A stretch of DNA of 64,000 bases, from the NCBI RefSeq assembly GCF_000971155.1, contig NZ_BBLX01000009.1, positions 1 to 64,000 of the forward strand, in the 5' to 3' direction. How positions within the stretch are numbered: position 1 is the first letter of the stretch; each line of letters begins with the position of its first letter. Below are positions 1,007-63,559 of the stretch, piece after piece. The position numbers and the translations under genes were made by a program. Under the pieces are notes generated by a model that was not told where the DNA came from, searched no databases, and saw nothing but the letters and a program-made list of their open reading frames with translations. Source of the DNA: Demequina maris. Its GTDB lineage: Bacteria; Actinomycetota; Actinomycetes; Actinomycetales; Demequinaceae.

Positions 1007-1087
1007 GCTCGCATCGTCCCGGTCGCCGTGCCGGGTCGTCAGCCAGCGCCCGCATCCTGTGGATGGAGGGCCCGTCGCGGCAGCCCG

Positions 1088-1137
1088 TTGACACCTGGGG
1101 ACACGCAAACCTGCACCTGCGTGTCCTCACGTGTCAA
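1088..1137. repeat. Long imperfect inverted repeat with TTGACA ends
   Basis: Arms of 20 bases at 1088-1107 and 1118-1137 read TTGACAC, one variable base, TG, one variable base, GGACACGCA. They match at 18 of 20 positions around a 10-base centre. The outer TTGACA reads as a -35 box on both strands. It could be an operator for a dimeric regulator, a hairpin, or a REP-like element. Confidence 0.6.
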
Positions 1138-1174
1138 TGGCGCGCGCAGAGGCGGGAACCGGAGGGCGGACGCT

Positions 1175-1416: not shown

Positions 1417-2685
1417 TCAGACGGCGCCGCCGGGCTCCCGGGGGTCCGTGTCGTGCTCCGGTGAACCGAGGCCGGCGCGCTCGGCAGCCGCGGCGCGCGC
1501 CGCATCGTCCCCCGCATGGTCGTGCCCCGCTACGCCTGCCTCGCCCGCCTCGTCGGCCTCGGCCTCGCCGCCGATCCCGACGATCAGCGCGCCGATCGCG
1601 GTCGTGAGCGGGACCGCGAGCACCAGGCCGATCGACCCGACGAGGGTCCGCACCACCTCGCCCGCGATCTCGGAGGACGTGATGGCCGTGGAGACCGGGT
1701 TGTCGTAGACCGCGATGAGCATGATGAGCGGCAGCGACGCGCCGACGTACGCGAAGGCGATCGTGTACACGGTCGACGCGATGTGGTCGCGGCCGATGGT
1801 CATGCCGCGAGTGAAGAGCTGCCAGGGGCCGAGGTCGGGACGCGCCTTGCCGAGCTCCCACACCGCGGAGGCCTGGGTGATGGTGACGTCGTTGAGCACG
1901 CCGAGGCCGGCGATCATGAGGCCGCACAGCGCGAGGCCCTGGAGCGAGAGCCGGCCGTCGAGGAAGGCGAGGTTGATCTCCGCCTCCGACGGCACGCCCG
2001 GGATCTTGGCCGCCGTCACGGCCCACGTGCCGATCACCGCCGTGAACAGCAGGCCGGCGATGGTGCCGAGGTACGCCGTGGTGGTGCGCGCGTTGGGCCC
2101 GTGGGCGACGTACAGCAGCACGAACAGCGCCCCGGCCGAGGTGACCAGGCCGACGACGGGCGGGCTGGCGCCGTCGAACAGCGCGGGCACCGTGTAGAAC
2201 GCGACGATGCCGAAGGCGAGCGCGAGGCCGACGAGCGCGCCGAGGCCCCGCCACCACGCCACCGCGAGCACCAGCACGACGTAGACGATCAGCAGCGCCA
2301 CGATGGGCGGGTCGCGCGAGAAGTCGGAGAAGATCAGCGGCTGCGCGGGATCGACCTCGATCACCGTGACCTCGTCGCCCGGCTCGAAGGTGAGCGACGC
2401 GACGCCCGCGGGCGCCATCGTCCGCTCCTCCTCGGCACCCGGCGTCGTGACCTGCACGGTCGACTCGCCGGTGGTCTCGTCGAACGAGATCACCTCGGCC
2501 TCGAGCCGGGTCGCGCCCTCGTAGAGGAAGCTCTCCGACCCGAGCTTGTCCCACGACGACGGCCAAGTCGCGGCCGCGCCGACGATCACCGCGGCGAGCA
2601 CGCCGACGACGAGCGCCCAGAGGACGCGCGTCGTGGCCGCGCTCGCCCGCGGCGGGCTCTCGGAGTGCGAGTGCCCGGCGCCCAT
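1417..2685 (-). CDS. YibE/F family integral membrane protein
   Basis: 422 residues. An N-terminal transmembrane helix (about 20-42) is followed by an extracytoplasmic stretch of about 80 residues (VISFDETTGESTVQVTTPG), then about seven hydrophobic helices containing the family core GLGALVGLALAFGIVAFYTVPALFDG and the conserved GLGVLNDVTITQAS with nearby TIGRDHIASTVYT. The last 45 residues are charged and low in complexity (His, Asp, Ala). The family is a putative multi-pass transporter or permease of unknown substrate. The ATG at 2685 lies one base from the end of glyS, so the two are probably cotranscribed. Confidence 0.85.
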   Translation of the reverse strand: MGAGHSHSESPPRASAATTRVLWALVVGVLAAVIVGAAATWPSSWDKLGSESFLYEGATRLEAEVISFDETTGESTVQVTTPGAEEERTMAPAGVASLTFEPGDEVTVIEVDPAQPLIFSDFSRDPPIVALLIVYVVLVLAVAWWRGLGALVGLALAFGIVAFYTVPALFDGASPPVVGLVTSAGALFVLLYVAHGPNARTTTAYLGTIAGLLFTAVIGTWAVTAAKIPGVPSEAEINLAFLDGRLSLQGLALCGLMIAGLGVLNDVTITQASAVWELGKARPDLGPWQLFTRGMTIGRDHIASTVYTIAFAYVGASLPLIMLIAVYDNPVSTAITSSEIAGEVVRTLVGSIGLVLAVPLTTAIGALIVGIGGEAEADEAGEAGVAGHDHAGDDAARAAAAERAGLGSPEHDTDPREPGGAV

Positions 2686-2686
2686 G

Positions 2687-4072: not shown

Positions 4073-4158
4073 GTGATGCTCCTTGTGGAAGGGGGTCGGA
4101 ATCGCTCGCGACAGTCTAGCCGTGGGCGGGCGTGTGGACGATGCGCGGGTCGGGCTCG

Positions 4159-4248: not shown

Positions 4249-4308
4249 AGGGCGGGACGCGTCGCCGGACGATGCGCTCGAGGACTGGCTGGGTCCGAAG
4301 TCCTGATT

Positions 4309-7353: not shown

Positions 7354-7895
7354 TGCCCGGCATCCCCGACTTCGTGATGGACGGCCCCTGGTGGTGGCTG
7401 TTCGCGGCGCTCGTCGTCATCGTCTTCCTCCGCACGCAGGCCACGTACTGGATCGCGCGCTGGGCCCGCGCGGGTGCCGATGCGGTCGCCGACCGCGCCG
7501 AACATCAGGACAGCCGCCGCGCGCGCATCGCGCGGCGCTTCTCGGGCCCGGCCATGACCAAGGCGCAGGCCTTCACCGAGCGCTGGGGCTGGATCGCGAT
7601 CCCCCTGTCGTTCCTCACCGTCGGCATCCAGTCGCTCGTCAACGGCGGCGCCGGCTACGCGCGCATGCACTGGGGCCGCTACACGCTCGCGATGATCCCC
7701 GGTTGCCTGCTGTGGGCCACCGCGTACCTGCTGGTCGGCTACTCGGCGTTCAAGGCGTTCACCATGTCGCCGTGGGCGCTGGGCGCGAGCGCGCTGCTCG
7801 TCGCCGCGGTGGTCGCGGTGCTGGTGGTCCGCCGGAGGCGCGACCCCGCCGCCGCATCGTCCCCGCGCACGCCCGACGAGGCCGCGAGCGTCTGA
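7353..7895 (+). CDS. DedA-like (VTT domain) membrane protein
   Basis: 180 residues. An N-terminal helix after the WWWLF motif, then a cytoplasmic basic segment, then GWIAIPLSFLTVGIQSLVNGGAGYARMHWGRYTLAMIPG, which matches the re-entrant VTT/SNARE-associated domain core of the DedA family. The last helix is followed by RRRRDP and a short tail. DedA proteins are associated with lipid carrier flipping and membrane homeostasis. The ATG at 7353 shares its first base with the zur stop (TGATG), so it is the last gene of the zinc operon, although a role in zinc is not evident. Confidence 0.75.
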   Translation: MPGIPDFVMDGPWWWLFAALVVIVFLRTQATYWIARWARAGADAVADRAEHQDSRRARIARRFSGPAMTKAQAFTERWGWIAIPLSFLTVGIQSLVNGGAGYARMHWGRYTLAMIPGCLLWATAYLLVGYSAFKAFTMSPWALGASALLVAAVVAVLVVRRRRDPAAASSPRTPDEAASV

Positions 7896-8667: not shown

Positions 8668-9336
8668 CTATCGGCGGGACGATGCGGCGGCCGCCCAGGC
8701 CTCGATGTCGCCGTAGAGCGCCGGGAGCTCGGGCGCGGCCATCGTCACGAGGTGCGCGACCGCGGACGATGCGGGGCCCACGGCGGCGGTCGCGGCGCCG
8801 AGGCGCGCGGCGGGCTCGAGGTCGTACGCGTAGATGTCGCCCACCGACAGCACCGGGCCGCGCGTGAGCGCGTCCGCGACGAGCGCGGGCATCCCGTCGG
8901 GCTTGCCCGCCGAGCACACCACGCGGTCGAGGTGGGGCGCGGCGCCGAGCACCTCGAGCGCCTCGTCGATGCGGATCGGCGGCGAGTTGGTGACGAGGAC
9001 CAGCTCCGCGTGCTCGGCGAGGCGCGCGAGGAAGTCCCCGAGGCCCGCGGGCGGCGCGATGGGCGCCTCGGGACCGGCGAGCAGCGCGCGGCTGCGGACG
9101 TAGCCCTCCTGGAGCGCGTCGGGCGCGACGCCGAGGTCCAGTGCCGTCTGCTGGACCGCGTGGTAGCCGTCGCGGAAGCCGCCCTCGCCCGCCTCGTGGC
9201 GCGCGAGCGCGGCCGCGTAGGCGTCGTCGGCGCCCGGGACGCCCGCGACCGCGGCGACGCACGCGGCGTACGCGTGCAGAGGCCCGTCGCCGAGCGCGAG
9301 CGTGCCGTCGAAGTCGAAGATCACCGTGGCGGTCAT
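8668..9336 (-). CDS. HAD-family hydrolase
   Basis: 222 residues. HAD motif I is [10 protein letters not shown] at the N-terminus, motif II is LVLVTNSPP, the Lys is in CSAGKPDG, and the acidic motif IV is [14 protein letters not shown]. The cap is helical. This is a phosphatase-type fold of unknown substrate. The ATG at 9336 overlaps the recO stop by 4 bases, and the gene runs into uppS on the same strand. Two copies of GGACGATGCG flank its end. Confidence 0.8.
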
Positions 9337-10788: not shown

Positions 10789-10817
10789 TTGCGAATCGTA
10801 CTAAGTACGTCTAGCGT
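10789..10817 (+). promoter_or_regulatory. Promoter with TetR operator in its spacer
   Basis: -35 TTGCGA at 10789-10794 and -10 TAGCGT at 10812-10817 are 17 bases apart. The operator TCGTACTAAGTACG (10796-10809) fills the spacer, so the repressor would exclude RNA polymerase. The promoter faces the oxidoreductase gene at 10873. Confidence 0.6.
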
Positions 10818-10830
10818 CGAGTGTACCAAG

Positions 10831-11910: not shown

Positions 11911-12669
11911 ATGACCGCCGTCACCACCGCATCGTCCGCCCGCGTCGCCCGCTGGGCCGGCGCCGGCTACCTCGCGATCTTCGCCCTCGCGATCTTCGCC
12001 AACTTCGCCGTCCGCAACCAGCTGGTCGACCCCGCCGACCCGGCCGCGACCATGACCGCGATCGCCGACCACGAGGGCACCTTCCGCCTCGGGATCGCCG
12101 CGTTCGTCACGATCGCGATCATCGACATCGGCATCGCGTGGGCGCTCCACGTGCTGCTGCGTCCCACCGGCGAGCAGCGCTCGCTCCTCGCGGCGTGGCT
12201 CCGCCTCGCGTACAGCGTCGTGTTCGGCGTCGCCGTGACGTTCATGGCGGTCGCCCTGCACCTCGCGACCGGCGGCGCCGCGGTCGCCGGGCTCGGGGAC
12301 GATGCGCGGGCCGCCTGGACCGGCACCGCCATGGAGGCCTTCGACGTGGCATGGCTGATCGGGCTCGTCGCCTTCGGCCTCCACCTCATCGTGATCGGCC
12401 GGATCCTGATCGCCGCCCGGCTGGCCCCGCGGGCGCTCGGCTGGGCGCTCGGCGTGGCGGGCTCCGCGTACATCGTGGACACGTTCGCCCACGTGCTGCT
12501 CCCCGACTACGCGTCGGTCGCCGACGTCATGCTCGCGGTCGTCGCGATCCCGTCGATGGTCGCCGAGATGTGGTTCACCGTGTGGCTGCTCGTCAGCGCG
12601 CCGCGCGCGACCGCCGCGCTCCACCGGGCCGCGGACCAGCGTGTCACGCGGGAGGCGGTCCCGGCGTGA
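11911..12669 (+). CDS. DUF4386 family membrane protein
   Basis: 252 residues with about six hydrophobic helices. It starts VARWAGAGYLAIFALAIFANFAVRNQLV and continues with DHEGTFRLGIAAFVTIAIIDIGIAWALHVLLRPTGEQRSLLAAWLRLAYSVVF, the family pattern. The function is unknown. AGGAG lies about 8 bases before the ATG. It is the second gene of the TetR-controlled operon and ends at a strong hairpin. Confidence 0.8.
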   Translation: MTAVTTASSARVARWAGAGYLAIFALAIFANFAVRNQLVDPADPAATMTAIADHEGTFRLGIAAFVTIAIIDIGIAWALHVLLRPTGEQRSLLAAWLRLAYSVVFGVAVTFMAVALHLATGGAAVAGLGDDARAAWTGTAMEAFDVAWLIGLVAFGLHLIVIGRILIAARLAPRALGWALGVAGSAYIVDTFAHVLLPDYASVADVMLAVVAIPSMVAEMWFTVWLLVSAPRATAALHRAADQRVTREAVPA

Positions 12670-16564: not shown

Positions 16565-17873
16565 CGTCCTCGTCCTTCCGGCCGCGCCTGCGCGGCACCG
16601 TCTCGTTCTCGCTCGTGCCCGGCGCCGCATCGTCCTCGGGGGCACGCGTCGCGATCACCGACACCAGCGTGCGCCTGCGGCCCTCGGCGCGCTCGGCGAA
16701 CAGCTCGATGCCGTGCGCGGTCGCGCGCGATCCGGGGATCGGCACCTTGCCGAGCGCCTTGGCGAGCAGCCCCGCCACCGTCTCCACGTCCTCGTCGTCG
16801 ATCTCGACGCCGAAGAGCTCTCCGAGCTCGTCGAGCCCGCAGCGCGCGGGCATGCGGTAGCGGCCGTCGCCCAGGTCCTCGACCTCGGGCGCTGAGCGGT
16901 CGTGCTCGTCGACCACCTCGCCGACGATCTCCTCGAGCGCGTCCTCGATCGTGACGACGCCGGCGACGCCGCCGAACTCGTCCACCACGACCGCCATGTG
17001 GAACACCTCGTCCTGCATGCGCCGCAGCAGGTCGTCCGCGGGCACGGACTCCGGGACGAACACCGCCTCGCGCAGCAGCCCGTCGATGGGCTCCTCGAGC
17101 CGCTCGGGGTGATCCCAGGTCGCCCGCACCACGTCCTTGAGGTACAGCACGCCGACCGTGTCGTCGACGTCGCCGCGGATCACCGGCACGCGCGAGTAGC
17201 CCGAGCGCATGAACAGCAGCATCGCCTTGCGCGCGGGCGTGCCCGCCTGGATCGTCACCATGTCGGTGCGCGGCACCATCACCTCGCGCGTGAGCGTGTC
17301 GCCCAGGCTCACGACCGAGCGCAGCAGCTCGGCGTCCTCCTCCTCGAGCGCCTCGCCCGCCTGCTCGACCAGGTCCTCGGGCTCGGACAGCTCGCGGATG
17401 CGCAGCGCCGGCACCACCGCGCGGATGGGCGTGGTGAGGCGGATCAGCGTCCATGCAAGCGGCGCGAGCGCGCGGATCGCGGTCTCGGGGGCCCGGCGCG
17501 CGGCGGCGCGCGGCCAGGCGCGCACGATGACGAGCGACAGGAACGCGGCCACGACCCACGCGAGCAGCAGCGTCGGGCCGGTCTCCCAGCCCATCGCGTC
17601 GCCGAGCGCGAGGGCGAGCGCCGTCCACGCGACGATCGCGACCGTCTCGAGCACCGCATAGGCGACGGACGATGCGGTGTCGGCATGGTCGGGCAGCGCC
17701 GCCAGCCGCGCGGCCCGGGTGGGGGCGCCGTCGGGACGCAGCTGGCCGGCCATGCGGCGCTCGTCCGCGTACGGGATCTGCTCGAAGGCCGCGACGACGG
17801 CGTGGAGGGCCGCCGCACCCGCGAGGCCCGCGACCACGACCGCCACGAGCAGGCTGATGGCGGTCTCTGTCAC
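16557..17873 (-). CDS. CorC/HlyC-family CBS-pair membrane protein
   Basis: 438 residues from the GTG at 17873. The N-terminal part has three or so hydrophobic helices in a diverged CNNM/DUF21 region. A CBS pair begins near residue 200 ([36 protein letters not shown]) and runs through [35 protein letters not shown]. The C-terminus is the CorC transporter-associated domain ([20 protein letters not shown]). These proteins are proposed Mg/Co efflux or ion-homeostasis factors. Position next to era and ybeY is conserved in actinobacteria. Confidence 0.9.
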
Positions 17874-19102: not shown

Positions 19103-20145
19103 TTCCGCTCCTCCCGGTCGAACCGGCGGCGCTGGCCGGTGGGTCGAGGGCCGCGGCCCTGATCCTGCTCGTCGTTCTCCGCGTACGCGGTGATGATGTC
19201 GCTCACCAGGCGGTGCCGGACCACGTCCTGCGCGCCGAGGTGGCAGAACGCGATGTCCTCGACGCCCGTGAGGATCTCCGACGCGGCGCGCAGGCCCGAC
19301 CGCGTGCCGCCCGGCAGGTCCACCTGCGTGACGTCGCCGGTCACCACCATCGTGGTGCCGAAGCCCAGGCGGGTGAGGAACATCTTCATCTGCTCGCGCG
19401 TGGTGTTCTGCGCCTCGTCGAGGATCACGAACGCGTCGTTGAGCGTGCGTCCGCGCATGTACGCGAGCGGCGCCACCTCGATCGTGCCGGCCTCCATCAG
19501 GCGCGGGATGGACTCGGGGTCGACCATGTCATGCAGCGCGTCGTACAGCGGGCGCAGGTAGGGGTCGATCTTCTCGCTGAGCGAGCCGGGCAGGAAGCCC
19601 AGGCGCTCGCCTGCCTCGACCGCCGGGCGCGTGAGGACGATGCGGTTGACCCGCTTCGCCTGCAGCGCCGCCACGGCCTGCGCCATCGCGAGGTAGGTCT
19701 TGCCCGTGCCCGCCGGGCCGATGCCGAACGTGATGGTGTGCGAGTCCATCGCGTGGACGTAGGCCGCCTGGCCCTCCGTCTTGGGCCGGATGGTGCGCCC
19801 GCGCGTGGAGAGGATCGAGCGGCTGAGGACGCCCGCGGGCCGCTCCGCGACGGCGGTCGTGCCGCCGCTCGACGGGCCCGTCGAGCGCAGCATGCGCACG
19901 GACTCGCGCGCGACCTCCGGGGTCAACGGCACGCCCGCGCCGAGCACATCGCGCAGCTCCTCGACCGCCGAGGCGGCCGCATCGACGTCGTCCTCGTCGC
20001 CGGTCAGGGTGATGCGGTTGCCGCGCACCATGATGTCGACCGCGGGGAACGCCTTCTCGACCTCGCGGAGCACGCCGTCGCCCGAGCCCAGCAGGTCCGG
20101 CATCCTCGCCGCGTCGTCGACGACGACCACCCGGGTGACGCTCAC
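19099..20145 (-). CDS. phoH: PhoH-like ATPase
   Basis: 348 residues from the GTG at 20145, which overlaps the HIT stop by 4 bases. An N-terminal KH-like segment ([22 protein letters not shown]) precedes the PhoH domain with Walker [12 protein letters not shown], Walker [12 protein letters not shown] and [11 protein letters not shown]. It is paired with ybeY, as in most bacteria, and both probably act in RNA metabolism. Confidence 0.94.
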
Positions 20146-20486: not shown

Positions 20487-21256
20487 GCTCCTAGCGTAGT
20501 GACCGGCCCGCCCCAATGACCGCGCAGGGCGGCCAGGGCCGCGAGCGCGGCCGGGCCGGCGGACGAGGCGCGGAGGACGTGCGGTCCGAGCACCACGGCC
20601 TCGGCACCGGCAGCCACGAGCGCGTCCACCTCGGCGTCCGAGATGCCGCCCTCCGGGCCGACGGCCAACCAGACCGGGATGTCGGCATCGTCCCAGGTCA
20701 GGGCCGAGATCGGCGCGGCGGCGGACTCGTGCAGGACCAGCACGCGTGTGCCCGCGGCGACCGCGTCGGCGACCCGCGCCGCGAGCTGGCGGGTGGTCGC
20801 CGCATCGTCCACCGTCGGGACGACGGCGCGGCGGCTCTGCTTGGCGGCGGCGAGCGCCAGGGACGCCCACTTCTCGCGACCCTTCGCGGCCTTGGGGCCG
20901 CGCCACTGCACGATCGCGCGGTCCGACGCCCACGGGACGATGCGCGTGGCGCCGAGCTCGACGGCCGCCTCGACGGCCTGCTCGTCGCGGCCGCCCTTGG
21001 CGAGCGCCTGCACGAGCGTGACGTCGGGGTCGCGGTCGCGGCTCACCGCCTCGACGCGCACCTCCATCCAGCGGTCGCCGGTGGCGACGAGCACGCCGCT
21101 CGCGCGGGCGCCCGCACCGTCGACGACGTCGACCCGTTCGCCCACCTGGCGGCGCTGGACGGTGACGGCATGGCGCGCCTCGTCCCCCTCGACGCGCAGG
21201 ACGTCGCCCGCGGCCGCCGTGGCCGCCGCGGGGTCGACGAAGACGGGCGCGGTCAC
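20483..21256 (-). CDS. rsmE: 16S rRNA m3U1498 methyltransferase
   Basis: 257 residues. N-terminal PUA-like domain (FVDPAAATAAAGDVLRVEGDEARHAVTVQRRQVGE) and C-terminal SPOUT knot with AVGPEGGISDAEVDAL and VLGPHVLRASSAGPAALAAL. The GTG start is 2 bases from the dnaJ stop. Two exact GGACGATGCG copies lie within it (20801 and 20935). Confidence 0.95.
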   Translation of the reverse strand: MTAPVFVDPAAATAAAGDVLRVEGDEARHAVTVQRRQVGERVDVVDGAGARASGVLVATGDRWMEVRVEAVSRDRDPDVTLVQALAKGGRDEQAVEAAVELGATRIVPWASDRAIVQWRGPKAAKGREKWASLALAAAKQSRRAVVPTVDDAATTRQLAARVADAVAAGTRVLVLHESAAAPISALTWDDADIPVWLAVGPEGGISDAEVDALVAAGAEAVVLGPHVLRASSAGPAALAALAALRGHWGGPVTTLGA

Positions 21257-42755: not shown

Positions 42756-42774
42756 GGCGCCCGCCGCATCGTCC

Positions 42775-46794: not shown

Positions 46795-46872
46795 GCACCG
46801 CCGCGGCGCTCCCCCGCCGCCGCATCGTCCCCACCCTTGTCCCGCCGCATCTGCGGCGCTAGCGTCGCCCTC

Positions 46873-47274: not shown

Positions 47275-48041
47275 GGTCGCCGGCCCGGGTGGTGGCGGCC
47301 GGCGTCGTCGCGCTCGCGCTCGGCGGCTGCGCCGCCCTCTCGCCGGACTCGCAGGGTGCCCCCTCGACGGCGGTCACGCACGTCCTGGACGTGTACGCGG
47401 CCGCGTCGCTGTCCGAGGTCATGGAGACGCTCGCCGTCGGCTTCGAGGAGGTGCTCCCCTGGGTCGACGTGCGCGTCACGTACGGCGGCAGCAGCGACCT
47501 CGCCGCGCAGATCCTCGAGGGCGCCCCGGCGGCGGTCTTCGCGTCGGCGGACGAGGCGCAGATGGCCGCGGTCGCCGACGAGGTCGCGGGCGAGCCGGTC
47601 GTCTTCGCCACCAACACGCTCACGATCGCGGTGCCCGAGGGCAACCCCGCCGGCGTGACCGGGCTCGGGTCCCTCGCGGACGATGCGGTGGTCACCGTGG
47701 TCTGCGCGCCGCAGGTGCCGTGCGGCGCCGCGACGGCGACGCTCGCCGCGCACGCGGGCGTGGACATCGCCGCGGTCTCCGAGGAGCTCAGCGTCACCGA
47801 CGTCCTGGGCAAGGTCGCCTCCGGCCAGGCCGATGCCGGCGTCGTCTACGTCACCGACGTCCCGCGCGCGGAGGGCGTCGAGGCGGTCGCGATCGACGGC
47901 GCGGACGCCGTGGTCAACCGCTACCCCATCGCCAGGCTCAAGAGGTCCGACTTCGCGGAGATCGCCGACGACTTCGTGGCCTACGTCGCCGGGGCCGAGG
48001 GCCGCGCGGTGCTGGCCGAGGCCGGGTTCGGGGCGCCGTGA
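47271..48041 (+). CDS. modA: Molybdate ABC transporter substrate-binding lipoprotein
   Basis: 256 residues from the GTG. Lipobox LALGGC. The binding domain begins LDVYAAASLSEVMETLAVGFEE, with VRVTYGGSSDLAAQILEGAPAAVFASADEAQM and FATNTLTIAVPEGNPAGV, the ModA pattern. GQADAGVVYVTDV is the late hinge motif. The first gene of modABC proper. Confidence 0.93.
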   Translation: MRSPARVVAAGVVALALGGCAALSPDSQGAPSTAVTHVLDVYAAASLSEVMETLAVGFEEVLPWVDVRVTYGGSSDLAAQILEGAPAAVFASADEAQMAAVADEVAGEPVVFATNTLTIAVPEGNPAGVTGLGSLADDAVVTVVCAPQVPCGAATATLAAHAGVDIAAVSEELSVTDVLGKVASGQADAGVVYVTDVPRAEGVEAVAIDGADAVVNRYPIARLKRSDFAEIADDFVAYVAGAEGRAVLAEAGFGAP

Positions 48042-48817: not shown

Positions 48818-49836
48818 GGTTCGAGGCGCAGGTCACGGTCGAAGGGCGCGACGTCGACGCGACGCTCACGGTCGGCGCGGGTCGCACGCTCGCGCTGCTC
48901 GGCCCCAACGGGTCCGGGAAGTCCACGGCGCTCGAGGCGATCGCCGGCGTCGTGCGGCCCACCCGTGCGCGCATCGTGCTCGACGGGGTTGAGCTTGTCG
49001 GGGCCGGGCGGCCGGTGCCGCCCCGCGAGCGCGGCATCGTGCTGCTCGCGCAGGACGATGCGCTGTTCCCCATGAGCGTGCTCGACAACGTCGCGTTCGG
49101 GCCGCGCGCGGCCGGACGCCGGGACGCGCGCGAGGTCGCGGGCACGTGGCTCGAGCGGGTGGGCTGCGCCGATCTCGCGGCACGCCGGCCGGGCGAGCTG
49201 TCCGGCGGGCAGGCGCGCCGCGTCGCCATCGCGCGGGCCCTCGCCGCCGAGCCCCGGGTCCTCCTGCTGGACGAGCCGTTCGCCGGCCTGGACGTGGAGG
49301 CCGCCTCGTCGATCAGGACGATGCTGCGGGCCCTGCTCGCGGACGTCACCGCGATCGTCACGACACACGACGCGCTCGATGCGCACACGCTCGCCGACGA
49401 CGTCGCCGTGATGGACGGCGGCCGCGTCGTGGAGGCGGGCGCGGCGGCGGAGGTGCTGACCCGGCCCCGCACCCCGTTCGCGGCGCGGATGGCCGCACGC
49501 GTGCTGGTCGCCGGGACGATGCGCGGGGGCGCGCTCGAGCTGCCGGGCGGCGCCCGCGTGCCCGTCAGCGGTGGCCCGGGCGGCGGCGCTGCGGGGGCCG
49601 TCGCGCTGCCGCCCTCGGCCGTCGCGCTCGCGGTCGGGGACGCGCCGCGCGACCGGGCGCTGGCGTGGATCCCCGACGCCGTCACGGCGCTCGAGCCGCG
49701 CGGGGACGAGGTGCGGGTGGTCGGCGCGACGGTCGCGGCGGACGTCGACGCGACCGTCGCGGCACAGCTCGACGCGGGTGCGGACGTGTGGTTCGGCGTG
49801 CCGCGCGGGCTTGCCGCGTACGCCCTCACCGACTGA
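48814..49836 (+). CDS. modC: Molybdate ABC transporter ATP-binding protein
   Basis: 340 residues. Walker A GPNGSGKST, Q-loop LLAQDDALFPHM-type segment (LAQDDALFPMSVLDNVAFG), signature LSGGQARR, Walker B LLLDEPFAGLD and switch VTTHDA. The C-terminal part (about 250-340) is a TOBE-like regulatory domain. Two GGACGATGCG copies fall in it (49053 and 49514). Confidence 0.92.
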   Translation: MRFEAQVTVEGRDVDATLTVGAGRTLALLGPNGSGKSTALEAIAGVVRPTRARIVLDGVELVGAGRPVPPRERGIVLLAQDDALFPMSVLDNVAFGPRAAGRRDAREVAGTWLERVGCADLAARRPGELSGGQARRVAIARALAAEPRVLLLDEPFAGLDVEAASSIRTMLRALLADVTAIVTTHDALDAHTLADDVAVMDGGRVVEAGAAAEVLTRPRTPFAARMAARVLVAGTMRGGALELPGGARVPVSGGPGGGAAGAVALPPSAVALAVGDAPRDRALAWIPDAVTALEPRGDEVRVVGATVAADVDATVAAQLDAGADVWFGVPRGLAAYALTD

Positions 49837-49898: not shown

Positions 49899-50390
49899 AT
49901 GGCCCCGGACCTGTCGGGCGTGCGCGTGCACGTCCTCACCGCGTCGAACCGATCGGCGCGCGGCGAGCGCGCGGACGCGTCGGGCCCCGTGCTCGCGGAC
50001 GCGATGGCGGCGCTGGGCGCGGAGGTCGCGACGCGCATCGTCCCCGATGGCGTCGACTCGGTGCGCGGCGCGATCCGTGCCGCGATCGCGGGCGGCGCCC
50101 GGGTGGTGCTCACCACGGGTGGCACCGGCCTGACCCCGCAGGACCTCACCCCCGAGGCGACAGCGCCGCTGCTCTCGCGGCCGCTGCCCGGGATCGCCGA
50201 GCGGCTCCGCGCGGTCGACGCCGAGGCCGTGCCCACCGCGGTGCTCTCGCGCGGCCTCGCCGGGGTGACCGAGGAGGGCGCGATCGTCGTGAACGTCGCC
50301 GGGTCGCCGGGCGCCGCGCGCTCCGCGGTCGCGGTGCTGGCGGCGGTGCTGCCGCACGCGCTGTCCCAGCTGGACGGAGGGGACCATTGA
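49899..50390 (+). CDS. MoaB/MogA-type molybdopterin protein
   Basis: 163 residues. VRVHVLTASNRSARGERADASGPVLADAMAALGAEV, VVLTTGGTGLTPQDLTPEAT and the late NVAGSPGAARSAVAVLAAVLPHALSQL place it in the MoCF-biosynthesis (MogA/MoaB) family, which adenylates molybdopterin. A -10 TACACT at 49886-49891 lies 7 bases before the ATG, so this starts a new leaderless transcript moaB-moaE-moaA. Confidence 0.9.
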   Translation: MAPDLSGVRVHVLTASNRSARGERADASGPVLADAMAALGAEVATRIVPDGVDSVRGAIRAAIAGGARVVLTTGGTGLTPQDLTPEATAPLLSRPLPGIAERLRAVDAEAVPTAVLSRGLAGVTEEGAIVVNVAGSPGAARSAVAVLAAVLPHALSQLDGGDH

Positions 50391-50803: not shown

Positions 50804-51798
50804 CGGCGGCCCTGATCGACCGGTTCGGGCGCGTCCACCGCGACCTGCGCATCTCGCTGACCGACCGCTGCTCGCTGCGGTGCACCTACTGCATGCCGGC
50901 CGACGGGGTGCCATGGCTCGCCTCGTCGACGCTGCTCACCACCGAGGAGCTGGTGAGGCTCGCGCGCGTGGCGGTGTCGCTCGGGGTGCGCGAGATCCGG
51001 CTCACGGGCGGCGAGCCGCTGCTGCGACCGGACGTCGTGGACGTGGTCGCGGCGCTGGCCGAGCTCCGGGGGCCCGACGGGCCGCTGGACCTGTCGCTCA
51101 CGACCAACGCGCTCCGCCTGCCCGCGCTCGCCGCGCCGCTCCGTGACGCGGGGCTCGCCCGGGTCAACATCTCGCTGGACACGCTTCTGCGGTCGCGCTT
51201 CATCGAGCTGACGCGGCGCGATCGGCTCGCGGACACGCTCGCCGGGATCGAGGCGGCGCGCGCCGTGGGCTTCTCCCCCGTCAAGCTCAACGCCCTGGTG
51301 ATGCGGGGGGTCAACGACGACGAGATCGGCGACCTGGTGGCGTTCGCCGTGGAGCGCGGGCTCGAGATGCGCTTCATCGAGCACATGCCGCTCGACGGCG
51401 GCCACACGTGGCGGCGCGAGGAGATGGTCACCGGCGAGGAGATCCTCGCGGCGGTGTCGGCGCGGTACGAGCTCGAGGCGCTCGGGCACGACGGCTCGGC
51501 GCCCGCGTCCCAGTTCCGGATCGTCGGAACCCCCTCGACGGTCGGGGTCATCGCCTCGGTGACGCGCGCGTTCTGCGACCGCTGCGACCGGGTGCGGCTC
51601 ACGGCCGACGGCCAGTTCCGCAACTGCCTGTTCGCGCACGACGAGTCCGACCTGCGCACCCTCATGCGCGAGGGCGCGGACGATGCGCGGCTCGCCGAGG
51701 CCATGCAGGCGTGCGTGTCGCTCAAGAAGCCGGGGCACGGGATCGACGACCCGTCCTTCGTGCAGCCGTCCCGGCCGATGAGCGCGATCGGGGGCTGA
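50800..51798 (+). CDS. moaA: GTP 3',8-cyclase
   Basis: 332 residues from the GTG overlapping moaE (GTGA). The radical SAM cluster motif is CSLRCTYCMP and the C-terminal 4Fe-4S cluster motif is FCDRCDRVRLTADGQFRNC. LTGGEPLLR and SLDTL are present, and the essential C-terminal Gly-Gly ends the protein (SAIGG). First step of molybdopterin synthesis. Confidence 0.96.
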   Translation: MTAALIDRFGRVHRDLRISLTDRCSLRCTYCMPADGVPWLASSTLLTTEELVRLARVAVSLGVREIRLTGGEPLLRPDVVDVVAALAELRGPDGPLDLSLTTNALRLPALAAPLRDAGLARVNISLDTLLRSRFIELTRRDRLADTLAGIEAARAVGFSPVKLNALVMRGVNDDEIGDLVAFAVERGLEMRFIEHMPLDGGHTWRREEMVTGEEILAAVSARYELEALGHDGSAPASQFRIVGTPSTVGVIASVTRAFCDRCDRVRLTADGQFRNCLFAHDESDLRTLMREGADDARLAEAMQACVSLKKPGHGIDDPSFVQPSRPMSAIGG

Positions 51799-51809: not shown

Positions 51810-52430
51810 CTACGCCGTTGCGACGGGCTGGCGGAGGATCGTGCGGAGCTTCTCGGGCGCGACCTTGCGGAAGTCGCTGAGGTAGATCTCGTGGTGCCGG
51901 CCGGTCATGCGCAGGCCGTTCGCCGGGATGAACTCGTCGTGGATCCGCGCGAGGACCGGCCCCTCGTCGTCGAAGGACCCGACGTGGAGCGTCTGGACGC
52001 ATCGTCCCTCCGCGAGGGTCTCGAGGCGGACGTCGTCCAGGCGGGCCGGGGCGTCCTTCGCGCCGGCGGCGGCGATCGCGGACTCGACCAGCGCATCGCC
52101 CACCCAGTCCGGCGTCATGATCATGAGGGTCCAGTCCCAGGCCGACTTGTCCCGGCGCGTGGTGAAGTACGCGGGGTCGTCGGCCGTCCAGAGGCCCTCG
52201 AGCGGCATGACGACGTAGTCGCGGCCCAGCTCCTTCTTCGAGGCGAACTTGGCCTTGTACGCGACCGGGTAGAGGGCCTCGATGGCCTGGGCGAATGCGG
52301 GGCTCGCGTTGGGATCGCCGTGGCCGTCGACCATGAGGTAGCGGGTGGGCGGGACGTCGAGCAGCCGGACCTCGCCGCGCTTGGCTGCGTAGGCGTCGAG
52401 GGTCCTCTTGAGGTCGACCTTGTCGGGCAT
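51810..52430 (-). CDS. GyrI-like small-molecule-binding protein
   Basis: 206 residues. PTRYLMVDGHGDPNASPAFAQAIEALYPVAYKAKFASKKELGRDYVVMPLEGLW and LHVGSFDDEGPVLARIHDEFIPANGLRMTGRHHEIYLSDFRKVAPEKLRTILRQPV match the GyrI-like/SOUL-type domain family. Its function is unknown. It is convergent with moaA, 11 bases away. Confidence 0.85.
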   Translation of the reverse strand: MPDKVDLKRTLDAYAAKRGEVRLLDVPPTRYLMVDGHGDPNASPAFAQAIEALYPVAYKAKFASKKELGRDYVVMPLEGLWTADDPAYFTTRRDKSAWDWTLMIMTPDWVGDALVESAIAAAGAKDAPARLDDVRLETLAEGRCVQTLHVGSFDDEGPVLARIHDEFIPANGLRMTGRHHEIYLSDFRKVAPEKLRTILRQPVATA

Positions 52431-54053: not shown

Positions 54054-54287
54054 CTAGCCCCCCGCGAACGGCGGCAGGACGTCGACCAGGTCGCCGCCCG
54101 CCAGCGCCTCGTGGTCCTCGAGGCGGGTGCCGTCGCGCAGGATGGCGCACTGACGGATCACCCGCGGCGCATCGTCCCCGCGCATCGCCAGCGCCTCGCG
54201 CAGACCCGCCACGGAGCCCACAGCGAGGGTGAGCTCCTGAGCGCCCGCGGCCTCCGCGGCGCCGGCGAACAGCCTGACCGTGATCAC
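54054..54287 (-). CDS. moaD: Molybdopterin synthase sulfur carrier subunit
   Basis: 77 residues from a GTG overlapping the previous stop (GTGA). ITVRLFAGAAEAAGAQELTLAVGSVAGLREAL is ubiquitin-like, and the C-terminus ends VDVLPPFAGG with the Gly-Gly that is thiocarboxylated by MoeB. Last gene of the long minus-strand operon; its partner moaE is 3.7 kb away on the other strand. Confidence 0.93.
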   Translation of the reverse strand: MITVRLFAGAAEAAGAQELTLAVGSVAGLREALAMRGDDAPRVIRQCAILRDGTRLEDHEALAGGDLVDVLPPFAGG

Positions 54288-56884: not shown

Positions 56885-57593
56885 CCGCGCCTCCCGCGAT
56901 CGGCAGGCTGCGCCACGCGCCGTCGCGGGCGTCGACCACCTGGAGGGTCCCGACCAGGCCGCGCCCGGCTCCCGTGAGCCGCACGATCGCCTGCGATGCC
57001 ATCGCCGCGCCCACCTGGCCGCACAGCGGCCCGAGCACGCCGCCCGCGTCGCACACGCCGAAGTCGGGCGCCGGCTCCACCGGGAAGACGTCGCGGAGGG
57101 TGCGCCCCTCGTCGAACACGGTCACCTGGCCGAACCACCCCTGGACCGCTCCCCACACCAGGGGGATCCCGAGGTCGGCGCAGGCATCGGCGACCGCGAG
57201 GCGCGACGGCCACGTGTCGGTGCAGTCGAGCACGAGGTCGTCCCCGGCGAGCACGTCGGCCGCGTCCGCGCCCAGACGGGCGTCAATCGTGGTCACGGAG
57301 ACCTGGGGGGCCAGGGCGGCGAGGGACGATGCGGCGGCCTCGACCTTCGCGAGTCCCACGTCGGCGGGCCCGAAGAGCACCTGCCGGTGCAGGTTGGTCA
57401 CCGAGACCCGGTCGGAGTCGATCAGCGTGAGCGCCCCGACACCCGCTGCGGCGAGGTAGAGCGCGGCCGGGCAGCCGAGCCCGCCCACGCCGACGATCGC
57501 GACCCGCGCCGCGCCCAGCGCCTCCTGCCCCTCTCCCCCGAAGCCGGGGAGCGCCCGTTGCCGGACGTACGCGTCAGCTGCCACCCGCGTCAC
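56877..57593 (-). CDS. moeB: MoeB/ThiF-type adenylyltransferase
   Basis: 238 residues. RQRALPGFGGEGQEALGAARVAIVGVGGLGCPAALYLAAAGVGALTLIDSDRVSVTNLHRQVLF is the E1-like ATP-binding core, and LDCTDTWPSRLAVADAC contains the DxTD motif. It lacks the zinc CxxC pairs and the rhodanese domain of some homologues. It activates MoaD. GTG start, 20-base overlap with the upstream gene. Confidence 0.9.
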   Translation of the reverse strand: MTRVAADAYVRQRALPGFGGEGQEALGAARVAIVGVGGLGCPAALYLAAAGVGALTLIDSDRVSVTNLHRQVLFGPADVGLAKVEAAASSLAALAPQVSVTTIDARLGADAADVLAGDDLVLDCTDTWPSRLAVADACADLGIPLVWGAVQGWFGQVTVFDEGRTLRDVFPVEPAPDFGVCDAGGVLGPLCGQVGAAMASQAIVRLTGAGRGLVGTLQVVDARDGAWRSLPIAGGAGA

Positions 57594-59385: not shown

Positions 59386-60609
59386 TCACTCGCGTCGCGG
59401 CGTCGCCGCGACCTCCGAGGCCAGCAGATCCGGCCTCGCTACGTTGCCGATGACGATAATCGCGGGAGGTTTCACCCCTGTTTCCCCCGCGATAAGAACA
59501 ATGTCGTCGAGGGTGCCGTGAGTCACACGCTCGTCCGCGGTGGTCCCGGACTCGATGATCGCGACCGGCGTGGACCCGGGCGCACCGCCCGCGAGGCCCG
59601 CCGCGACGATGTCCGGCAGCGCGGCGACGCCCATGAGCACCACGACGGTCGTGCCGTGCGTCATGGCGGCCACGGAGGTCGCGTCGGCACCGGCGTGGCC
59701 CGAGGTGACGAGCACCGCGGTGGACAGGCCCCGCTGCGTCACGGGGATGCCCGCGCGTGCCGGGACCGACAGCGCCGAGGTCACGCCGGGCACCACCTCG
59801 ACGGGCACGCCCGCCTCGAGGCACGCATGCACCTCCTCGCCTCCGCGCCCCAGCACGAACGGGTCGCCACCCTTGAGGCGCACCACGGTGCGGCCCTGCT
59901 GCGCGTGCGACACGAGGATCCGGTTGATCTCGTCCTGCGGCACCGGGTGGCGGTCGGGCGACTTGCCGACGTTGATGACCTCGACGTCGTAGGGCACGGT
60001 GACGAGCAGCTCGGTGGTGCCCAGACGGTCGGTAACCACCACGTCGGCCTCGGCGAGCGCCTGGCGACCGCGCACGGTGACGAGACCCGGGTCGCCGGGG
60101 CCGGAGCCCACGAGGATCACGCGGCCGTGACCGGAGCGGCGCCTGCGCAGGTCGACCGCGCCCGCGTCGATGTGCGCGGCGACCGCGTCGCGGACCGCCC
60201 GGATCCGGGCGGGGTCGGGGCGGTCGGTCGAGATCACGCCGACCGCGAGGTCGCCGTGACGCGACAGCGCCGCCTGCCGCGCGGTGCCGTTGGTCGCGTC
60301 GGAGGCGTCGATGCAGAACACGCGTCGCGACTCGGCCCAGGCCGCCACCGCATCGTTCACCGCCGCATCGTCCGTCGCCGCGAGCACGAACCACGCGTCG
60401 TCGAGGTCGGGCTCCTCGACGCGTCGCTCACGCCATTCGAGGTCGCCGTGCTGGGCGAGCCGGCGCACGTCGTCGCTCGCGTCGGGCGACACGACGCACA
60501 CGTCCGCGCCCTCCGCGAGGAAGCGCTTGATGCGCCGCGAGGCCACATGGCCGGCGCCCGCGACGAGCACGCGCCGATCCTTGAGGTCGAGTCCGAAAAG
60601 AGCTGTCAC
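59386..60609 (-). CDS. cysG: Siroheme synthase, SUMT plus precorrin-2 dehydrogenase
   Basis: 407 residues. The N-terminal half is an NAD-binding precorrin-2 dehydrogenase (RRVLVAGAGHVASRRIKRFLAEGADVCVVSP), without an obvious chelatase active site. The C-terminal half is uroporphyrinogen-III C-methyltransferase: VGSGPGDPGLVTVRGRQALAEADVVVTDRL, VRLKGGDPFVLGRGGEE, VPGVTSALSVPARAGIPVTQRG. With the separate chelatase downstream it completes the route to siroheme. Overlaps nirD by 4 bases. Confidence 0.94.
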   Translation of the reverse strand: MTALFGLDLKDRRVLVAGAGHVASRRIKRFLAEGADVCVVSPDASDDVRRLAQHGDLEWRERRVEEPDLDDAWFVLAATDDAAVNDAVAAWAESRRVFCIDASDATNGTARQAALSRHGDLAVGVISTDRPDPARIRAVRDAVAAHIDAGAVDLRRRRSGHGRVILVGSGPGDPGLVTVRGRQALAEADVVVTDRLGTTELLVTVPYDVEVINVGKSPDRHPVPQDEINRILVSHAQQGRTVVRLKGGDPFVLGRGGEEVHACLEAGVPVEVVPGVTSALSVPARAGIPVTQRGLSTAVLVTSGHAGADATSVAAMTHGTTVVVLMGVAALPDIVAAGLAGGAPGSTPVAIIESGTTADERVTHGTLDDIVLIAGETGVKPPAIIVIGNVARPDLLASEVAATPRRE

Positions 60610-60989
60610 GCACCACCCGCCAGGTCGATGAACACGACGCCATTGTCGAGGTGGACACGGTGAACGGCCAAGTCCGGCGCGCGTCCCTCCTTCGGCTCCT
60701 TGTCCATCGTGACCAGGCAGGTCCCGTCGAGCAGCGAGAAGACCTGCTTGTAGATGGGCGACGCGATGGTGGGCACGTCGCCCCTCGAGCCCGTGATGCC
60801 GCGCGAGATCACCGACGCGCCGGAGAACGGGTCCAGGTTCTGGACGCAGTGCACCGAGCCGTCGGCGAGCAGGAAGATCGCGACCTGCTCGCCGCCCACG
60901 AGCGCGGCCACGCCGAGCTCCGGCGTGAGGTCCGCGAGCGTGCAGACGCGGGTCGCGGTGGACGATGCGGTGGCGGAGACGGCGGTCAT
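60606..60989 (-). CDS. nirD: Nitrite reductase small subunit
   Basis: 127 residues. Rieske-like fold without the iron-sulfur ligands, as usual in NirD: VCTLADLTPELGVAALVGGEQVAIFLLADGSVHCVQNLDPFSGASVISRGITGSRGDVPTIASPIYKQVFSL. Partner of NirB, overlapping its stop (ATGA). Confidence 0.94.
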   Translation of the reverse strand: MTAVSATASSTATRVCTLADLTPELGVAALVGGEQVAIFLLADGSVHCVQNLDPFSGASVISRGITGSRGDVPTIASPIYKQVFSLLDGTCLVTMDKEPKEGRAPDLAVHRVHLDNGVVFIDLAGGA

Positions 60990-63559
60990 GACCGGACCTC
61001 CAGGGTGGTGGGGGCGATGAGCACGGGCGCGTTCTCGCGCTCCGCGGGGGTGGCCGGGCGGCGCTGGCCGCGCTGCTCGACGTACGCGAGCGTCGGGTCG
61101 GGCTGCTCGGGCGCGTTGACGAACGACGCGAACTGGCGCAGGCGCACCGGGTCGTTCAGCACGGCCTTCCACTCGTCCTCGTAGGAGTCGATGTGGCGGG
61201 CCATGTGCGCGTCGAGCTCCTCACCGAGGCCGAGGGAGTCGTCGACCACGATCTCGCGGATGCGGTCGAGGCCGCCCTCGTGCTCCTGCTGCCACGGGGC
61301 CGTGCGCTGCAGGCGGTCGGCGGTGCGGATGTAATACATGAGGTAGCGGTCGATCACGCGGAAGACGTCGTCGTCGGACACGTCCTCCACGAGCAGCTGC
61401 GCGTGCACCGGCGTGAAGCCGCCGTTGCCGCCCACGTAGACGTTCCAGCCCTTGTCCGTCGCGATCACGCCGACGTCCTTGCCGCGGGCCTCGGCGCACT
61501 CGCGGGCGCAGCCCGAGACGCCCAGCTTGAGCTTGTGGGGGCTGCGCAGGCCGCGGTAGCGCAGCTCCAGGGCGATCGCCATGCCCACCGAGTCCTGCAC
61601 GCCGTAGCGGCACCAGGTCGAGCCGACGCAGGACTTCACGGTGCGCAGCGACTTGCCGTACGCGTGGCCCGACTCCATGCCCGCGTCCACGAGCCGCTTC
61701 CAGATCTGGGGCAGCTGCTCGAGCCGAGCGCCGAACATGTCGATGCGCTGGCCGCCGGTGATCTTCGTGTACAGCCCGTAGTCCTGGGCGATCTGCCCGA
61801 TGAGGATGAGGTGCTCGGGCAGGATCTCCCCGCCCGGCACGCGCGGCACCACCGAGTAGGTGCCGTCCTTCTGCATGTTCGCCATCACACGGTCGTTGGT
61901 GTCCTGCAGCGCCGCGCGGTCGCCGCCGAGGACGTGCGCGTTGTACAGCGACGCGAGGATCGAGCCGACGGTGGGCTTGCAGATGTCGCAGCCGCGTCCG
62001 GTGCCGAAGCGCTCGATGACCTCGGAGAACGTGGTGACCTCCGCCACCTTGATCGCGTTGAAGAGCTGAGCACGGGACAGCGCGAAGTGCTCGCACAGCG
62101 CGTTCGAGACCTCGATGCCGGCCTTCTCGAGCTCGGTCCCCATGATCTTCTTGACGAGCGGGAGGCACGAGCCGCACGACGTGCCCGCCTTGGTGCAGGC
62201 CTTCACCGCGCCGAGGTCGTGGCAGTCGTGGTCGGTGACCGCGCCACGGATGCTGCCCGCCGACACGTTGTTGCACGAGCACACGCCCGCATCGTCCGGC
62301 AGCTCGATCTCGCCCTTCTCGACGGACCCCTCGGGCAGGATCCACGCGGCGGGGTCGCCGGGCAGCTCCGCGCCCACCATGGGCCGCAGCGACGCGTACG
62401 CCGAGGCGTCGCCGACGAGCACGCCGCCCAGCAGCGTCTTCGCGTCGTCCGTGAGCACCAGCTTCTTGTAGACGCCGTTGACGGGGTCCGCGTAGACCAT
62501 CTCGAGCGCGCCCGGGGTGGTGGCGAACGCGTCGCCGAAGGACGCGACGTCGACGCCGAGCAGCTTGAGCTTGGTCGCCATGTCGGCGCCGGGGAACGTG
62601 CTCGCGCCGCCCAGCAGGCGGTCGACGGCGATCTCCGCCATCGTGTTGCCGGGCGCGATGAGGCCGAGGCAGGCGCCCTGGATGCACGCGACCTCGCCGA
62701 TCGCGCTGACGGCGGGGTCCGCGGTGAGGCACGTGTCGTCGACGACCACGCCGCCGCGCGCACCGGTCTCGAGGCCGGACGTCGCGCCGAGCTCGTCGCG
62801 CGGGCGCACGCCGGTCGCGAAGACCACCACGTCGACCAGCTGCTCCCCGCCGTCCGCGAAGAGGAGGCTGCCCACGTGACCGTCCTTGCCGGCGCGGATC
62901 TCCTGGGTGGCGGTGCTGCAGCGCACCGTCACGCCCATGCGCTCGATGAGCCGCTTGAGCGCCTCGCCGCCGCCCTCGTCCACCTGCAGGTTCATCAGGC
63001 GGTCCGCGAACTGGATCACCGTGCTGCGCGCGCCGAGGCTCTGGAGCGCGCCCGCCGCCTCGAGGCCGAGGAGGCCGCCGCCGATGACCGCGCCGCGGAC
63101 GGGCCGGCCGAGCTCCGCGCGGCGCTCCTCGACCCAGCCGCGCAGCGCGGCGACGTCGTCGACGGTGCGGTACATGAACACGCCGGGCAGGTCCGCGCCC
63201 GGCGTGGGCGGCGCCCACGCGTACGAGCCGGTCGCCAGGACCAGGTGGTCGTACGCGACCTCGCGGCCGCCCTCCACGGTGACGATGCGCCGGTCGCGGT
63301 CCACCGCGGTCGCGCGGCTGTCGCGGTGCAGCGTGACGAGCGGGTCCTGCCACAGCGCGGGATCGCCCAGCTGCAGGTCCTCGGGCGTCCTGCCCTGGAA
63401 GTAGCTCGTGAGCGCGACCCGGTCGTACGGCGCGCGGGGCTCCTCCGCGAGCACCTCGACGCTGAAGCGCCCCTCGGTGTCGCGGGCCCGCATGGCCTCG
63501 GTGAAACGGTGGGCGACCATGCCGCCACCCACGACGACGATGTGCTCGGTGGTCATCAT
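60986..63559 (-). CDS. nirB: Nitrite reductase large subunit
   Basis: 857 residues; the first ATG of MMTTEHIVVVGGG overlaps the upstream stop and has GGGGAGG before it. An FAD/NAD reductase region (VVVGGGMVAHRFTEAM, AVIGGGLLGLEAAGAL, VVVFATGVRPRDEL) is followed by a BFD-like [2Fe-2S] domain (CSCNNVS, CGSCLPLV) and a sulfite-reductase-type ferredoxin half-domain. The siroheme/4Fe-4S domain comes last, with CVGSTWC and GVSGCARECAE as cluster ligands. It reduces nitrite to ammonium with NADH. Confidence 0.96.
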   Translation of the reverse strand: MMTTEHIVVVGGGMVAHRFTEAMRARDTEGRFSVEVLAEEPRAPYDRVALTSYFQGRTPEDLQLGDPALWQDPLVTLHRDSRATAVDRDRRIVTVEGGREVAYDHLVLATGSYAWAPPTPGADLPGVFMYRTVDDVAALRGWVEERRAELGRPVRGAVIGGGLLGLEAAGALQSLGARSTVIQFADRLMNLQVDEGGGEALKRLIERMGVTVRCSTATQEIRAGKDGHVGSLLFADGGEQLVDVVVFATGVRPRDELGATSGLETGARGGVVVDDTCLTADPAVSAIGEVACIQGACLGLIAPGNTMAEIAVDRLLGGASTFPGADMATKLKLLGVDVASFGDAFATTPGALEMVYADPVNGVYKKLVLTDDAKTLLGGVLVGDASAYASLRPMVGAELPGDPAAWILPEGSVEKGEIELPDDAGVCSCNNVSAGSIRGAVTDHDCHDLGAVKACTKAGTSCGSCLPLVKKIMGTELEKAGIEVSNALCEHFALSRAQLFNAIKVAEVTTFSEVIERFGTGRGCDICKPTVGSILASLYNAHVLGGDRAALQDTNDRVMANMQKDGTYSVVPRVPGGEILPEHLILIGQIAQDYGLYTKITGGQRIDMFGARLEQLPQIWKRLVDAGMESGHAYGKSLRTVKSCVGSTWCRYGVQDSVGMAIALELRYRGLRSPHKLKLGVSGCARECAEARGKDVGVIATDKGWNVYVGGNGGFTPVHAQLLVEDVSDDDVFRVIDRYLMYYIRTADRLQRTAPWQQEHEGGLDRIREIVVDDSLGLGEELDAHMARHIDSYEDEWKAVLNDPVRLRQFASFVNAPEQPDPTLAYVEQRGQRRPATPAERENAPVLIAPTTLEVRS

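Follow-up and report, generated by a model that had tools for sequence, protein, structure and literature searches.

A ten-base word iterated across the genome of Demequina maris that may mark self-DNA in the manner of an uptake sequence

The DNA uptake sequences (DUS) of the Neisseriaceae are asymmetric words of 10 to 12 bases with counts of about 1,500 to 3,300; their dialects follow the core-genome tree, they sit in core DNA, and inverted pairs of them lie at terminators between genes (PMC3630211). The uptake signal sequence (USS) of the Pasteurellaceae has a 9-base core and an extended form of 17 bases, its two dialect types follow phylogeny and are held to be convergent with DUS, and its receptor is predicted to be the minor pilin PpdA/ComN (PMC12616744). 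A highly iterated word of cyanobacteria, HIP1 (GCGATCGC), has links to orphan methyltransferases, and other HIP sequences occur in three exceptional genomes of cyanobacteria (PMC4390886). Within Actinomycetota, Micrococcus luteus is transformed through a Flp pilus and a ComEA/ComEC-based machinery (PMC6370729, PMC4322843), and neither 'uptake sequence' nor 'uptake signal' is a term used in PMC4322843. Here we analyzed 64,000 nucleotides of Demequina maris (contig NZ_BBLX01000009.1, positions 1 to 64,000; hereafter the window), in which a ten-base word, GGACGATGCG (word A), recurs on both strands. We propose that a mark of self-DNA runs through this genome, probably working as uptake sequences do in Neisseriaceae and Pasteurellaceae, and that GGACGATGCG is its form in the local dialect; the best reading of our analysis is that this actinobacterial mark is convergent with DUS and USS. 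Searches of open-licence papers turned up no such word or uptake sequence for actinobacteria or Demequina among the results listed, although a description elsewhere is possible; of 43 papers in which word A stands as text, the 20 listed deal, by their titles, with aptamers, RNA binding and other unrelated matters.

The window contains 18 plus-strand and 19 minus-strand exact copies of word A, the first starting at position 1010 and the last spanning 62288 to 62297. These figures agree exactly with the hand count of a preliminary description of this DNA. GGACGATGCG is the commonest 10-mer of the window, and the runner-up among words free of overlap with it is the palindrome CGCGGCCGCG, which scores 26 with both strands read, equivalent to 13 places. 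Enrichment is not confined to the window: the 22 contigs of the genome, 2.97 Mb in all, have 751 copies on the plus strand and 729 on the minus strand, 1,480 in total, compared with 2 and 0 for the reversed word. As with uptake sequences, a short word that is non-palindromic, as previously stated, is thus present in hundreds to thousands of copies, far above expectation. The size of the excess varied with the model used to calculate it. Base composition predicts 0.27 copies in the window (our own arithmetic), and against this figure the hundredfold excess put forward earlier is justified. It shrinks to about 33-fold under an order-3 Markov model of 458 kb of the genome (6.9 copies expected, 232 observed) and to about ninefold when synonymous codons are shuffled within each gene (18.9 genic copies expected, with a standard deviation of 2.5 and a maximum of 25 in 30 shuffles; 177 observed). 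The ninefold value is a lower figure because the shuffle retains the GAT and GCA codons brought in by the words themselves. The word is therefore not what a codon-aware model predicts, and the earlier statement that it is no by-product of codon bias or of one protein motif was borne out for the bulk of the copies.

Reading frames and codon retention were then compared inside and outside the word. Among the 177 genic copies, 91 are read as GAC GAT GCG (4.1 expected from the codon shuffle) and 46 as GCA TCG TCC (0.4 expected), in agreement with the claim that the word forces GAT and GCA codons; the frame CGC ATC GTC (Arg-Ile-Val) accounts for 25, only twofold above the 13.3 expected. Retention was counted over pooled pairs among seven related word-A genomes. 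Where aspartate was conserved, 45 of 55 comparisons within words showed GAT retained, as did 86 of 376 outside them (p 2.6e-17), and GCA was retained in 8 of 15 and 64 of 405 comparisons, respectively (p 1.2e-3). These p-values are overstated because genome pairs are not independent, but the direction is still plain. Flanking positions carry at most 0.31 bit each within 15 bases on either side, consistent with the reported lack of conserved flanks.

Related words were found in the relatives of this strain (individual genomes are denoted by handles such as G006). Our survey covered 47 genomes of the family, 44 from Demequina with the present one included and three from two other genera, and the dialect words across them are GGACGATGCG, GGCCGATGCG, GGCCGATGCT/C, GGACGATGCC and GCCCGACGCT. 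Word A is high (at least 347 copies per strand) in 15 of the 47. Among the three words counted, GGCCGATGCG (word B) leads in 12 further genomes and GGCCGATGCT (word C) in 6 further ones, with 174 (G036) to 736 (G010) copies. In each of the mixed genomes G015, G024 and G064, about 1,200 copies in the total for the pattern GGMCGATGCB fall to other endings; a 40-kb stretch of G015 held 10 copies of B and 7 of GGCCGATGCC, and the latter is favored in the sampled stretches of G008 (22 of 42 counted copies) and G036 (16 of 28). An unsupervised 10-mer search of 458 kb of the present genome and 20 to 100 kb of each of 17 others recovered the same words without prior input. It revealed GGACGATGCC beside GGACGATGCG in G027, which we count as mixed, and ACAGCGTCGGGC in G009, whose reverse complement, GCCCGACGCTGT, aligns with GGCCGATGCTG with two changes; 27 copies of GCCCGACGCT were counted in 100 kb of G009. 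Counting G027 and G009, 35 of the 44 Demequina genomes bear a dialect. The G009 word GCCCGACGCTGT departs furthest from the other dialects; it may be one more of them or something unrelated.

No word was seen in 60 to 80 kb each of G001, G003, G012, G028 and G066 (the last from outside the genus), stretches from which a low-density word could escape. The 10-mer search was ambiguous for G007 (20 kb) and G018 (60 kb), and G005, G013, G032, G067 and G068 were covered by counts of preset words. G001 retains 123 copies of word A, as if the word were decaying there; 22 genomes from other families have 3 to 37. A separate observation concerns G003, in which a longer repeat around GGGGTTGCGGAACTGT has at least four copies in 20 kb (L058, G003:C1:1-20000).

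We compared the dialects with a tree of 22 genomes built from 19 genes, which is sparse for some rows. One clade unites the word-A genomes G000, G006, G023, G017, G026 and G011 with G027 and G022, and adjoining it are G012 (no word), G063 (A) and G001 (no word). The B clade consists of G014, G034, G016 and G033, with G015 (mixed) and the C-type genomes G008, G036 and G010 as neighbors; G021 (C), G009 and G003 branch separately, close to the midpoint root. On this tree the dialects broadly follow the species, with some genomes, such as G015 and G027, being mixed. The preliminary description had suggested comparing related genomes for both the word and its positions. When word-A sites were compared with the aligned positions of other A genomes, 118 of 332 comparisons gave A again. 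Of 240 comparisons with B genomes, 8 gave B, 7 gave GGCCGATGCC and none gave A, and in word-less genomes A remains in 3 of 121. Likewise, of 55 comparisons of B sites with C genomes, 8 gave C, 5 gave GGCCGATGCC and none gave B. When the mixed genome G015 was moved from B into the GGCCGATGCC group, the test gave 8 B and no A among 197 (A to B); 8 C, 4 GGCCGATGCC and no B among 46 (B to C); 2 B, 4 C and 2 GGCCGATGCC among 57 (B to GGCCGATGCC genomes); and 8 A among 75 (GGCCGATGCC to A). A site in a genome of another dialect, if it has any word, mostly has the partner's word. These aligned-site counts therefore suggest that sites were partly converted in place and mostly replaced elsewhere.

The word is scarce in loci that appear to be exchanged. 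One is the type IV pilus cluster, which lies between aroE and aroC (L167/L168, 5258-17015, with the corresponding locus of 18 further genomes). It has a GC content below that of its flanks and occurs with two very different pilin sets, which distinguish even G000 from its close relative G006; this points to a surface structure being exchanged like a cassette. By hand sums over 15 word-bearing genomes, this cluster has 7 own-dialect copies in 189 kb compared with 56 in 121 kb of flanks, a twelvefold drop. G015 was counted by B in these sums (the flanks would have 53 copies if it were counted by GGCCGATGCC), and G021, for which the start of pilB was not found, and three word-less genomes were left out. 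A 20-kb polysaccharide cluster of the present genome, in which the 8 proteins scanned include epimerases, a sugar transferase, glycosyltransferases and a flippase-like protein, contains no copy of the word. Both loci are lower in GC, which may lie behind part of the scarcity, but we judge that it falls short of explaining a twelvefold drop. The picture at these two loci is of a mark that sits on core DNA, with recent arrivals being without it. Seven plasmid records matched, and the matches of the five listed were short or to housekeeping parts. Cumulatively, the genome-wide excess, the codon-aware controls, the dialects and the scarcity in exchanged loci support the earlier view that selection acts on the word itself. 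That it acts on 'exactly these ten bases' is valid for a single dialect and not for the genus, where most dialects share CGATGC and vary at the ends.

Occurrence of the pattern GGMCGATGCB was further counted in 396 genomes of the order, comprising 34 from Demequina, one other of the family and 361 from other families. G351 of family f11 (L259, L260) has 944 + 924 = 1,868 copies against 79 + 83 of the reversed pattern. Its words are mostly GGCCGATGCC and GGCCGATGCG with some GGACGATGCC (mainly GGCCGATGCC/G). No other of the 38 genomes examined from its genus has a high count: G351 has 943 copies of GGCCGATGCC, the rest 74 to 222. Several genomes of family f20 have raised counts, such as G098 with 285 + 309 copies in 2.7 Mb, and GGACGATGCC occupies 26 of the 50 places listed for G238. 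We treat the raised counts in family f20 as a lead, not a result.

Two genes of competence lie in the window. One is comEC (32475..34760, minus strand, 761 amino acids), with a Competence domain (Pfam PF03772, 133 bits) and a metallo-beta-lactamase domain, whose product we take to be the DNA channel of transformation. The other is comEA (34765..35478, minus strand, 237 amino acids), with SLBB and helix-hairpin-helix domains (Pfam PF10531, PF12836), whose product is presumably the surface DNA-binding protein. A reciprocal best match to comEA was obtained in 16 of the 20 genomes with a comEC locus that were examined. Of the 47 family genomes, 46 gave a ComEC match, which is split in G009, G027 and G060 and partial in G029 and G068, and 45 gave the type IV pilus protein PilM; competence machinery is thus present in the genome.

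Under the uptake mechanism that we propose, a surface or early-uptake component, with ComEA and ComEC encoded in the window and a type IV pilus elsewhere, would bind word-bearing DNA better than other DNA. Better binding would cause conspecific DNA to be imported and recombined more often, and this bias in uptake, which we infer to be the cause of the excess, would spread and maintain alleles with the word. The mark would then accumulate in core DNA and be scarce in newly arrived DNA. A shift of one base in the preference of the reader would let the set of sites drift to a new word and so give rise to dialects, and loss of the reader would leave the sites to decay.

Demequina carries a PilA-PilO type IV pilus cluster, but its pilins are not supported as the reader because the two pilA-pilX forms cut across dialects. 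In a prepilin search of ten genomes, a stand-alone prepilin of about 135 to 170 residues was found in nine, in addition to the cluster pilins. It adjoins a metE-like gene in eight of them (by Pfam for the present genome and by eye for the others) and an acetyltransferase-like gene in G003. Its C-terminal end contains a conserved Cys pair, and we take it to resemble ComP in design. A profile search against solved structures gave 22 matches to type IV pilins or pseudopilins, mostly along the N-terminal helix, and none of them was named ComP. We compared 22 Demequina sequences of this pilin, leaving out two from family f20. Twelve genomes, 11 of them word-bearing, have the typical form, PGVRFD..GYVE (PGVSFD in G063), and 10 genomes, 6 of them word-bearing, have other forms. 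With the ragged first column excluded, a single column splits A from B/C, with Ile in 8 word-A rows and Val in 7 word-B/C rows, and it may reflect ancestry. In the pilin tree, word-A G063 pairs with G028, for which no word was seen (support 84/77). The stand-alone ComP-like pilin thus fits in part as a candidate reader, with mixed support. As for a third PilB/PilT-like ATPase, on L043, no pilin gene was called nearby in the stretch examined.

Several observations weigh against an uptake mark or against such a reader. Of 207 comparisons of B sites with A genomes, 8 gave A and 8 gave B, B being as frequent as A (8 and 7 of 174 with G015 moved). ComEC is open without stops in the word-less genomes G001, G003 and G012 as well, and in the word-bearing G009 and G027 its match is in two pieces, one of the G027 pieces containing a stop. 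By eye, mltG is also called in pieces in both of these genomes (L173, L183), as is pilB in G027. Because other genes there are broken too, the splits in comEC are likely sequence errors, decay or loss being the alternative. The type IV pilin sets differ between the close relatives G000 and G006, which share a dialect. The word-rich G011, G020 and G036 have no clear stand-alone pilin ortholog outside the pilus cluster. In the word-rich G014 just the N-terminal half is present (G014:C6:82300-82960, L306), the protein being full-length in its sister species G034, and in G006, G023, G015 and G024 the stand-alone pilin is loosely related. No match to it was found in a search of the word-rich G351, nor in G252 and G300 of the same genus, and G028, in which no word was seen, keeps the typical form. 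Finally, among 15 pairs of words less than 60 bases apart, just 10 are inverted. Some of these are perfect hairpins, such as GGGGACGATGCGCATCGTCCCC. Seven of the 15 pairs lie between genes, and five of those seven are inverted, one of the five being between convergent genes; the inverted pairs are suggestive of terminator use as in DUS but no proof of it.

Since the testable DNA features of DUS and USS, bar the terminator pairs, were found in Demequina, we describe the mark as probably working like an uptake sequence and do not present it as a proven one. A broader proposal is put forward more tentatively: actinobacteria may have evolved, independently of Gram-negatives, a dialect-forming CGATGC uptake code for self-DNA, whose reader would not be a pilin of the pilus cluster but perhaps ComEA, ComEC or a stand-alone pilin. 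Through separate origin or transfer, such a code would also occur in at least G351, a species from another family, and perhaps in a third family (f20).

Orientation bears on the first of four other explanations. A Chi-like or other intracellular recombination signal (of the AdnAB/RecBCD/AddAB class, or one for DprA/RecA loading) would steer repair or integration instead of uptake. Such a signal could have a high copy number and a spread through core genes, and it would also give scarcity in new DNA, but an orientation bias with replication was not detected by stretches. Eighteen stretches of the present genome (488 kb) contain 244 copies, 111 on the plus and 133 on the minus strand, with no departure from symmetry across stretches (chi-square 11.5, 17 degrees of freedom); by our own estimate, which places each stretch on one replichore, a 3:1 skew within stretches would raise chi-square to about 74. 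The lack of strand preference noted before was thereby confirmed, and orientation is alike on both strands, as for uptake sequences, in a per-stretch test of 488 kb with origin and terminus unmapped. We consider a Chi-like role unlikely.

Somewhat less probable still is a site for a DNA methyltransferase or a restriction-modification system, in which case modification, repair or protection would account for the excess. HIP1 provides a precedent, with its ties to orphan methyltransferases and known switching of the word (PMC4390886). HIP words are palindromes, however, whereas GGACGATGCG is asymmetric and has single-base dialects that broadly follow the species tree; the specificities of restriction systems tend to be exchanged through transfer.

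We give equally little credence to a binding site for a nucleoid or chromosome-organising protein spread across the chromosome. The even density and strand symmetry of the word would suit such a protein, as would its greater density between genes (1.26 copies per kb compared with 0.41 per kb in genes, a threefold difference); copies in spacers and in several reading frames had been reported before, and both were seen again. Known chromosome-organising words (KOPS, matS, parS) are polar or regional. A nucleoid role, however, gives no account of the absence of the word from some species with normal-sized genomes, and it leaves the twelvefold drop at the pilus cluster unexplained, save by the age of the DNA. 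Lastly, the idea that the word is a by-product of mutation pressure at high GC, or of a bias in codons or proteins, finds some room in the twofold CGC ATC GTC frame, but it is refuted for the bulk of copies by the codon shuffles, the reversed word, GAT retention and the word-poor congener G012 (42 copies), and is very improbable.

The individual copies of the window are located as follows, with gene calls from our own script and not from a published gene finder. Within genes, plus-strand copies are at 8677..8686, 8764..8773, 12297..12306, 17667..17676, 19635..19644, 20935..20944, 47678..47687, 49053..49062, 49514..49523, 51678..51687, 57324..57333 and 60960..60969. Minus-strand copies within genes are at 1501..1510 (in gene 1417-2685 on the minus strand), 7853..7862, 11928..11937, 16626..16635, 20801..20810, 29601..29610, 29639..29648, 50034..50043, 51998..52007 and 60364..60373. 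A degV-like gene has a minus-strand copy at 36431..36440, and the leucyl-tRNA synthetase gene has copies at 38522..38531 (minus), 39249..39258 (plus) and 39545..39554 (minus). Those in a VanY/SLH gene are at 41099..41108 (plus), 41655..41664 (minus) and 41906..41915 (plus). A short called gene contains 54168..54177 (minus), and a nitrite-reductase-like gene contains 62288..62297 (minus). Intergenic copies are at 1010..1019 (minus), 39679..39688 (plus), 42765..42774 (minus) and 46821..46830 (minus), and the plus-strand copies at 4136..4145 and 4267..4276 were called intergenic.

Other features of this genome were recorded in passing. An Rfam scan of the window gave no match. Two pairs of the palindromic CGTACTAAGTACG / CGTACTTAGTACG are situated at 10799-10846 and 15316-15362 of the window, with about 35 bases between the members of each pair. 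They precede called genes at 10873 and 15382, both on the plus strand, and perhaps represent a repressor operator. An AT-richer element around TGTGTGACTT occupies seven places in about 490 kb of the genome, in both orientations (L039 2473; L043 10183 and 10249; L049 17514, 18531 and 18597; L050 7430).

The papers cited here describe uptake words from two families, both Gram-negative. If actinobacteria do provide a third case, unrelated to these, it would show that the marking of self-DNA evolves repeatedly. It would also make several ideas testable: that reader bias alone builds up sites, how dialects switch, and whether a dialect isolates its species from others. Demequina has no fewer than five dialects and many cultured type strains, together with apparent losses of the word and a single bearer outside the family. 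In practice, if the reading holds, adding the word to DNA might ease transformation of these bacteria.

How closely the Demequina word resembles the known systems varies among them. Micrococcus luteus is likewise an actinobacterium with ComEA/ComEC, but it uses a Flp pilus where Demequina has a PilA-PilO type IV pilus cluster. The likeness to HIP1 drawn in the preliminary description holds for a highly iterated word, with a few genomes having a different one; it is weakened by HIP1 being a palindrome, which GGACGATGCG is not, and being associated with methyltransferases. The likeness to DUS and USS drawn there is better supported, by the genome-wide excess, the codon controls, the dialects, the scarcity in exchanged loci and the presence of ComEC and ComEA. 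USS and the Demequina word share a short core and dialects that follow phylogeny; they differ in that USS has a 17-base extended form, compared with flanks of at most 0.31 bit per position in Demequina, and word and phylum are unrelated. DUS, read by the minor pilin ComP, has a core CTG in GCCGTCTGAA where Demequina has CGATGC, and the likeness to this actinobacterial word lies in the DNA. It extends to the length of an asymmetric word, its copy number, dialects that follow the tree, residence in core DNA and perhaps inverted intergenic pairs.

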